Below are positions 9,171-10,905 of a DNA stretch of 64,000 nucleotides, piece after piece (the first letter of the stretch is position 1; every line of letters begins with the position of its first letter). The notes below the pieces were generated by a model. The model was not told where the DNA came from, made no database searches, and was given only the letters and a program-made list of their open reading frames with translations. The DNA is taken from positions 124,001 through 188,000 of the forward strand of contig JAJFJQ010000066.1 in assembly GCA_021773835.1 (NCBI GenBank), read 5' to 3'. Made by a program: the position numbers and the translations under genes. The DNA is from Gammaproteobacteria bacterium (GTDB lineage Bacteria > Pseudomonadota > Gammaproteobacteria > Ga0077536).

Positions 9171-9510
9171 TCCCCTAAGGCTTCGTTGGTGGTTAAGTGC
9201 ATTGTATGTCTCCAATCATTTCGAGGCCAACCGCACGTAGAGTAACTTGCTAATGAACGGTTTGGACCGCATCGAACGCGAAATGCGGCACCTCTTACGT
9301 TCGCCTAGCAAGCAGTCGCCATTGTTGTAACTTCAACGATAAAATAGACTTTGCCAAGAGATCAACGACAGGGATCGTATTTCGAGCAGCACTTTGTTTG
9401 CTGTACGAAATTGGTACAGACTAGGTTCAGCGTTTATCTACTGCAGGAGCCCTCGTCAGCAAGAAAATCAGCTACTGTGGATGCAGAAAACGAACACGGG
9501 ATCAGAGCAA

Positions 9511-10293
9511 ATGAAATGTCATGAAGTAGACTTTGAAATATTCGGCGACGACATGCAGATAGTCGAGGTCGAGCTCGACCCTGGCGAAGTCGTGATCGCC
9601 GAGGCCGGCGCGATGAATTACATGGAGGAAGGGATTTCATTCGAGACGAAGATGGGCGATGGGTCAAACCCCTCTGGCGGGTTCTTAGATGCCGTGATAA
9701 ACGTCGGGAAGCGGGCGTTGACCGGGGAGTCGATTTTTATGACGCACTTCTCCAACGGCGGAAGCGGAAAACGACGGGTCGCATTTGCCGCACCCTACCC
9801 CGGCAAAATTATTCCCATTGATATGGCGGAGGTTGGGCAGGAGCTAATTTGTCAAAAAGATGCGTTTTTATGCGCCGCATTTGGCACGAACCTCGACATC
9901 GCTTTTCAAAAGAAGCTCGGTGCCGGTTTTTTCGGTGGCGAGGGATTTATCCTGCAGCGTCTGCGCGGCGACGGTAAGGCATTCGTACATATCGGCGGCA
10001 CCGTAATCAAGCGCGAACTCAAAAACGAAACATTGCGGGTCGACACAGGATGTATCGCGGCATTTACCTCCGGCATCGACTACGATATCGAACGGTCCGG
10101 CAATTTGAAATCAATGGTCTTTGGCGGAGAGGGATTGTTTCTCGCCACCTTGAAGGGGTCCGGCACGGTGTACCTCCAAAGTCTACCGTTCTCGCGACTG
10201 GCAAACCGCGTGATGCGTGCAGCTAGCTTTGGCCAATCAAAAGGTGAAGGTTCGGTGCTTGGTGGCCTTGGTGATCTGCTTGGAGATCGGTAG
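9511..10293 (+). CDS. AIM24/TIGR00266 family protein
   Basis: The product is 260 residues from the ATG at 9511, where family similarity starts ([16 protein letters not shown]). The open frame runs back to 9394 but the extension looks non-coding; another ATG lies at 9481. Conserved features are the [15 protein letters not shown] segment, glycine-rich loops ([35 protein letters not shown]) and a short C-terminal LGGLGDLLG tail. The family folds as a double-stranded beta-helix; a mitochondrial member, Aim24, affects cristae, but the bacterial role is unknown. It lies 18 bases upstream of the probable selenoprotein and could be co-transcribed with it. Confidence 0.85.
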
Positions 10294-10311: not shown

Positions 10312-10905
10312 ATGAATACTGAAATTCGAAAAGCCGTTTGTAGATTTTGGGCAGTCGCAAATCTAGCCGTATTGCTGAACCTGGTGGTTGGGGTCAACGT
10401 CATTGCTGAACCCTATGCGGAGCAATGGGGGCCGCCGCTAGGAAAGCCATTGCCGCTGCTTGAGGCCTATGACCATAGTGGCCAACTGCGGGGCCTCGAA
10501 AACCTAGCCGGCAAACGGGGTTTATTACTGTTCCTCAACCGTTCTGCGGATTGGTGACCATTTTGTCGTCGCCAGTTGGTCCAACTGGCTAAATGGCGGG
10601 GACGATTCGAATCTCTGGGCGTTGCCGTCGCGGCAATGACCTACGACAGGCGCGAAGTTCTAGCGGCATTTCATTCTGAAAATGAACTCGGCTATCCGTT
10701 GTTGCAAGACGAAAACGTCCGGCATTTCGAGGCCTACGGTATCAAAAATGAACAGTACCAACCGGGGGAATCCGGCTATGGGATCCCTCATCCAGGTATT
10801 GTGTTTGTAAACGCCGACGGACTTGTTGAGTTTAAGTTCGCCGATCGCGGATATCGTGATCGACCATCTTTCGAAGCAATATTTTCTGCGCTCGGCGGTG
10901 AGTAA
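10312..10905 (+). CDS. Probable selenoprotein: exported AhpC/TSA-like redoxin with U-x-x-C active site (in-frame TGA at 10555)
   Basis: One continuous thioredoxin-fold protein of about 197 residues is read if the TGA at 10555-10557 (codon 82) is decoded. Upstream is an export segment (about 13-32) and GKPLPLLEAYDHSGQL, then LLLFLNRSADW. After the TGA comes PFCRRQLVQLAKW and the rest of the redoxin domain (VAAMTYDRREVLAAF, GYPLLQD, YGIPHPGIVFV). In cysteine-containing relatives that I recall, this place reads SADWCPFC, so the TGA replaces the first active-site cysteine exactly. The frame is intact on both sides, unlike a decayed gene, and a SECIS-like hairpin follows. It is probably a periplasmic thiol/peroxide oxidoreductase. 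Reading it as two genes or a pseudogene is less likely. Confidence 0.85.
10571..10589 (+). promoter_or_regulatory. Candidate bacterial SECIS hairpin
   Basis: A perfect inverted repeat, GCCAGTTGG-T-CCAACTGGC, begins 13 nt after the in-frame TGA (10555-10557). A realistic fold is a 7-bp stem (10571-10577 with 10583-10589) and a GGTCC loop starting with guanines. Bacterial SECIS elements recognised by SelB are small hairpins just after the UGA with a G among the first loop bases, which fits. The element lies inside the coding sequence, as usual in bacteria. Confidence 0.7.

Follow-up and report, generated by a model that had tools for sequence, protein, structure and literature searches.

Peroxiredoxin-like selenoproteins with a U-x-x-C active site (U, selenocysteine) are known from Sargasso Sea and GOS data (PMC1088965, PMC2398784), and a 2026 selenoprotein catalogue includes a UxxC 'Redoxin family protein' assigned to PF08534 (PMC13188914). 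The described members comprise a Prx-like thiol:disulfide oxidoreductase (PF00578), GOS Prx-like 1 and 3, and the PF08534 family (PMC1088965, PMC2398784, PMC13188914). The redoxin analysed here has in common with them an AhpC-TSA/Redoxin domain, the U-x-x-C motif, cysteine homologues that are far commoner than the selenocysteine form, and a bacterial SECIS after the UGA; compared by description only, it differs in belonging to a subfamily that combines SADW[C/U]PFC with an export segment. At the level of whole selenoproteomes, each of those known in 2006 included formate dehydrogenase alpha (FdhA) or SelD, and these proteins are thought to maintain the selenocysteine (Sec) trait (PMC1794560).

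The gene lies in a 64,000-nucleotide stretch of DNA (the window) from a gammaproteobacterial genome, a 6.1 Mb draft of 74 contigs that is 98% complete; the window is on contig C63. We find it very likely that this gene encodes an exported redoxin with the active site Sec82-Pro-Phe-Cys85, its UGA being decoded by the genome's Sec machinery through a downstream hairpin and its catalysis, as we infer, being of the disulfide type.

The redoxin frame and its relatives

With TGA read as selenocysteine, the frame at 10312..10905 on the forward strand runs uninterrupted for 197 codons, from the ATG at 10312 to the TAA stop at 10903-10905, and would yield a protein of 197 aa. The in-frame TGA is codon 82 (10555..10557, forward strand), and the TGT codon for Cys85 (10564..10566, same strand) supplies the second residue of a U82-P-F-C85 motif at the CxxC position. 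The only other cysteine, C10, falls within the signal segment, leaving U82 and C85 alone in the mature part. A Pfam AhpC-TSA match (residues 44-173, E=1.8e-20, 73.6 bits against a cut-off of 26) spans the TGA, which together with the open 197-codon frame confirms the continuous redoxin sequence around codon 82 that the earlier note had reported; the Pfam Redoxin model also matches (1.1e-9, 38.6 bits, cut-off 26.6). Under table 11, the standard code, the gene splits into a pair of ORFs, 81 and 109 aa long, just as had been anticipated. Because the protein passes no NCBIfam model, automatic annotation would probably split it or call it broken.

A scan of bacterial and archaeal genomes kept 80 homologues, all of which carry cysteine at the position of codon 82, a count to be read with the fact that a cysteine peptide, SADWCPFC, served for part of the scan and favoured cysteine there. 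In a 54-sequence alignment the segment R77-S-A-D-W-C-P-F-C85 is invariant, Cys85 included, and the context SADW-TGA-PFC matches it at every other residue, in agreement with the U-x-x-C site first proposed. Where the homologues have Cys, a second genome of the genus shares the TGA of codon 82, its protein being 64-65% identical to that of the window. This congener orthologue is non-syntenic, the genes around it differing from those around the window redoxin. Comparison of the two Sec genes gives pN/pS values of 0.33 for the mature sequence that precedes the TGA and 0.26 for what follows, and conservation at third codon positions is much lower than at the other two; the part downstream of the TGA is thus selected as protein.

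In the tree, the Sec proteins of the window and the congener fall into a single clade (support 100/99) among cysteine proteins, and the nearest cysteine homologues of the redoxin include Gammaproteobacteria. One change from Cys to Sec within the genus would fit this clade, with the direction inferred, as the tree has no outgroup root. A class-wide search of 369 genomes (E<=1e-15) returned no further member of the subfamily, which leaves two genomes, both of one genus, as the only source of its Sec form here. When 398 genomes of the phylum were searched for DNA that encodes DW-UGA-PFC, 4 contained it besides that of the window, in frames that are short or unrelated and with no comparable hairpin after the pattern in any of the four. 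A plasmid search for the redoxin gave nothing beyond one 26% match.

Decoding of the in-frame TGA

Decoding UGA as selenocysteine calls on selA, selB, selC and selD, which the earlier note had named as a check, and all four are found in the genome. On contig C47 they stand in the order selA-selB-selC (SelA, 535 bits; SelB, 421 bits; tRNA-Sec with a UCA anticodon, 63.4 bits), and selD (295 bits) is on contig C55. UGA 82 would be decoded by SelB with Sec-tRNA-Sec, itself made by SelA from selenophosphate supplied by SelD. Elsewhere in the genome TGA is a normal stop, closing for example the selD frame.

Published bacterial SECIS elements are modelled with a loop of 3-9 nt, a stem of 4-16 bp and a spacing of 16-37 nt from the UGA, with a G at one of the two leading loop positions and, in most cases, G or U after it (PMC13188914). 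The search for such an element after codon 82 was successful: a hairpin at 10571..10589 on the forward strand (GCCAGTTG / GTC loop / CAACTGGC) fits this model with 8 bp, the loop GUC (or GGUCC) and a loop start 21 nt after the TGA. As RNA it reads GCCAGUUG-GUC-CAACUGGC, on a longer lower stem that extends over about 10563-10605, and it is predicted to direct Sec insertion at UGA 82. The congener keeps a hairpin of 7 bp with the loop GGUCG at 20 nt.

We then scanned related frames with the same model. Hairpins of -6.6 to -13.2 kcal/mol are present in 23/23 Sec redoxin frames, whereas the 80 Cys homologues average -0.4 kcal/mol and include a single comparable case at -8.9; the 23 frames are mutually related, and the Fisher value for this enrichment is not relied on. 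Among the 1,879 TGA triplets of the window, 0.5% score as well as the redoxin hairpin. Synonymous shuffles reach the score in 3.4% of cases for the window gene and 9.5% for the congener, so one hairpin alone is moderate evidence, while the whole set is strong. The scan allows no bulges and missed its positive control, the bulged stem of E. coli fdhF, and is therefore selective but incomplete. The exception among the Cys homologues, at -8.9 kcal/mol, is from Opitutaceae, where a SECIS-like hairpin sits just after the Cys codon of SADWCPFC; it may have arisen by chance or be left over from an ancestor that had Sec.

A TGC or TGT codon becomes TGA by one base change, and a frame split under the standard code is also what an ordinary nonsense mutation in a former cysteine redoxin would leave. 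Such a pseudogene is nonetheless very unlikely, since the same TGA is present in a second genome of the genus, selection downstream of it is as strong as upstream, the TGA falls exactly on the redox cysteine with a SECIS-type hairpin after it, and the genome has the Sec machinery. The draft state of the assembly, with its 74 contigs, leaves some room for a sequencing or assembly error at a codon 82 that is truly TGC or TGT, but the independent congener genome also has TGA, three more TGA redoxins occur in this genome, with many others across the family, and cysteine homologues largely lack the hairpin seen here; we regard an error as exceedingly improbable. Readthrough of TGA by tRNA-Trp is a general phenomenon, and the codon could in principle be read as another amino acid, by near-cognate readthrough with Trp or through a genome-wide code change. 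Against this stand the tRNA-Sec with its UCA anticodon and selA, selB and selD, the use of TGA as a normal stop for selD, and an aligned residue that is the redox cysteine and not Trp, which together reduce this reading to a negligible chance. We rejected all three explanations.

From these sequence comparisons we conclude with high confidence that the gene makes a selenoprotein in which selenocysteine replaces the active-site cysteine. The earlier note had called it a probable selenoprotein, and each check that could be run (sel genes, homologue alignment, SECIS) favours that call. Its identification of a redoxin with TGA at the first active-site cysteine is likewise supported as to selenoprotein nature, but the kind is not new, as UxxC Prx-like and redoxin selenoproteins were already established (PMC1088965, PMC2398784).

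Probable export, fold and probable chemistry

Residues 1-32 of the redoxin (MNTEIRKAVCRFWAVANLAVLLNLVVGVNVIA; 10312..10407, forward strand) resemble a signal peptide, with a charged start, a hydrophobic core and a plausible site between VIA and E, features read from the sequence; any cleavage would likely follow A32. The congener protein has a signal-peptide-like site of its own (VFA before DE), and the N terminus is hydrophobic in 60 of 63 near full-length homologues. The redoxin is likely exported, and it would be periplasmic or anchored via an uncleaved signal. The earlier note had placed it in the periplasm and held this to be unusual for a selenoprotein; the signal-peptide-like N terminus is in keeping with the placement, but the unusualness was overstated, since exported-type families are catalogued, among them DsbA-like, DsbG-like, TlpA, MtrB/PioB and TonB-dependent receptor proteins (PMC13188914). 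The redoxin adds to a known kind: UxxC Prx-like selenoproteins are long known, and exported ones are not rare.

Upstream, an AIM24-family gene (9394..10293, forward strand; Pfam AIM24 2.6e-73) ends 18 nt before the redoxin on the same strand, and the two are possibly co-transcribed. It is not found beside the congener's redoxin copy, and the neighbourhood gives no functional hint.

The structure predicted for the cysteine version (pLDDT 93.8) has peroxiredoxins as its closest solved folds, namely Bcp4 (Z 21.8), BcpB (21.3) and AhpE (21.2); among solved structures, ResA is the best match in sequence. ResA/TlpA-type oxidoreductases are exported, carry a CxxC active site and are reduced by DsbD/CcdA-type proteins. 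The redoxin differs from them in that its first Cys is Sec and its fold is nearer to Bcp/AhpE, and it scores 31.8 bits against the NCBIfam ResA model, where the cut-off is 170. Its best NCBIfam match is the SelL-related redox protein NF040769 (2.5e-13, residues 48-146), which is Prx-like as well; the 50.1 bits reached are under the cut-off of 120, and the redoxin has U-x-x-C, with Cys second. With Bcp/PrxQ and AhpE peroxiredoxins it shares the fold (Z 21-22 over about 150 residues) at 16-24% identity, but it has UxxC and not T/SxxC, Pro at the Arg position in the one alignment made, and an N-terminal export segment.

That alignment, a pairwise one with the PrxQ/Bcp chain 2cx3, pairs the peroxidatic Cys with C85, the Thr/Ser position with U82 and the Arg with P161. 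A selenoprotein that is mainly a peroxidase, with C85 or U82 reducing periplasmic peroxides and the other residue resolving, would agree with the position of C85 and with the peroxiredoxins Bcp4, BcpB and AhpE as closest solved folds (Z 21-22). A shared fold is no proof of activity, however, and in this single alignment U82 and P161 take the places of the catalytic Thr/Ser and Arg of a classical peroxiredoxin, so that we consider a peroxidase possible but somewhat doubtful.

The function that we favour is that of a U-x-x-C thiol(selenol)-disulfide oxidoreductase on a peroxiredoxin-type thioredoxin fold, which the mature protein is predicted to adopt. Its substrates would most likely be disulfides or other oxidised thiols, attacked by the U82 selenolate, and C85 would then resolve the intermediate as a U82-C85 selenenylsulfide. 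Because no Cys/Sec residues other than U82 and C85 lie outside the signal segment, such a cycle, as proposed for other UxxC oxidoreductases, would be the simplest mechanism. The genome encodes a DsbD-type reductase, which would probably supply the electrons, if they flow in that direction.

Selenoproteins elsewhere in the genome and its family

Three further redoxin frames in the genome have one in-frame TGA at a redox Cys and a SECIS-type hairpin after it: RGHW[U]PYC at C47:358461-358901 (L146), RGHW[U]PFC at C71:124604-124972 (L149) and SSW[U]GC at C47:368005-368343 (L150), the last of which resembles a UGC-containing TlpA-type family. Many of the family's genomes (G001-G035) carry single-TGA Prx-like proteins with RAHW[U]PYC or RGHW[U]PYC (for example L103, L104, L109, L118, L121, L127-L129 and L133-L145).

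A long frame on contig C55 (L132:4454-6865) encodes SelD in its C-terminal part, with Cys, not Sec, in the SelD active site, CGGCGSK. The N-terminal part looks like an NADH dehydrogenase, a name given by eye and from the Ndh-SelD fusions that have been described (PMC2398784). No match above the cut-off was obtained for formate dehydrogenase alpha, and none of the matches listed contains TGA; neither Sec-FdhA nor Sec-SelD was found in this non-exhaustive search of the genome. A SelD fusion with Cys, combined with no Sec formate dehydrogenase found, is unusual for a Sec-using bacterium.

Of the genomes sampled, 31 of 36 from the same family have selA, against 0 of 22 from elsewhere in the class, a distribution that suggests a Sec trait belonging to this bacterium's family. 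Sec is retained in the host lineage although neither of the two selenoproteins usually considered responsible for its maintenance turned up as a Sec protein. It may be, and we propose it tentatively, that the family keeps Sec without a Sec formate dehydrogenase or Sec-SelD by means of several redoxin-type selenoproteins, and that one genus converted a widespread exported Cys redoxin subfamily to Sec. If so, Sec would serve routine thiol chemistry in the periplasm. The locus offers a Sec redoxin that is well supported and probably exported, from a bacterium whose Sec system is complete, and with about 80 matched Cys homologues it makes the value of Sec versus Cys in one active site directly testable. 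On contig C47, a gene that by eye looks like a transposase (L130:10523-11728) lies a few hundred bases past selC, in the interval that separates the selABC cluster from the end of the contig.
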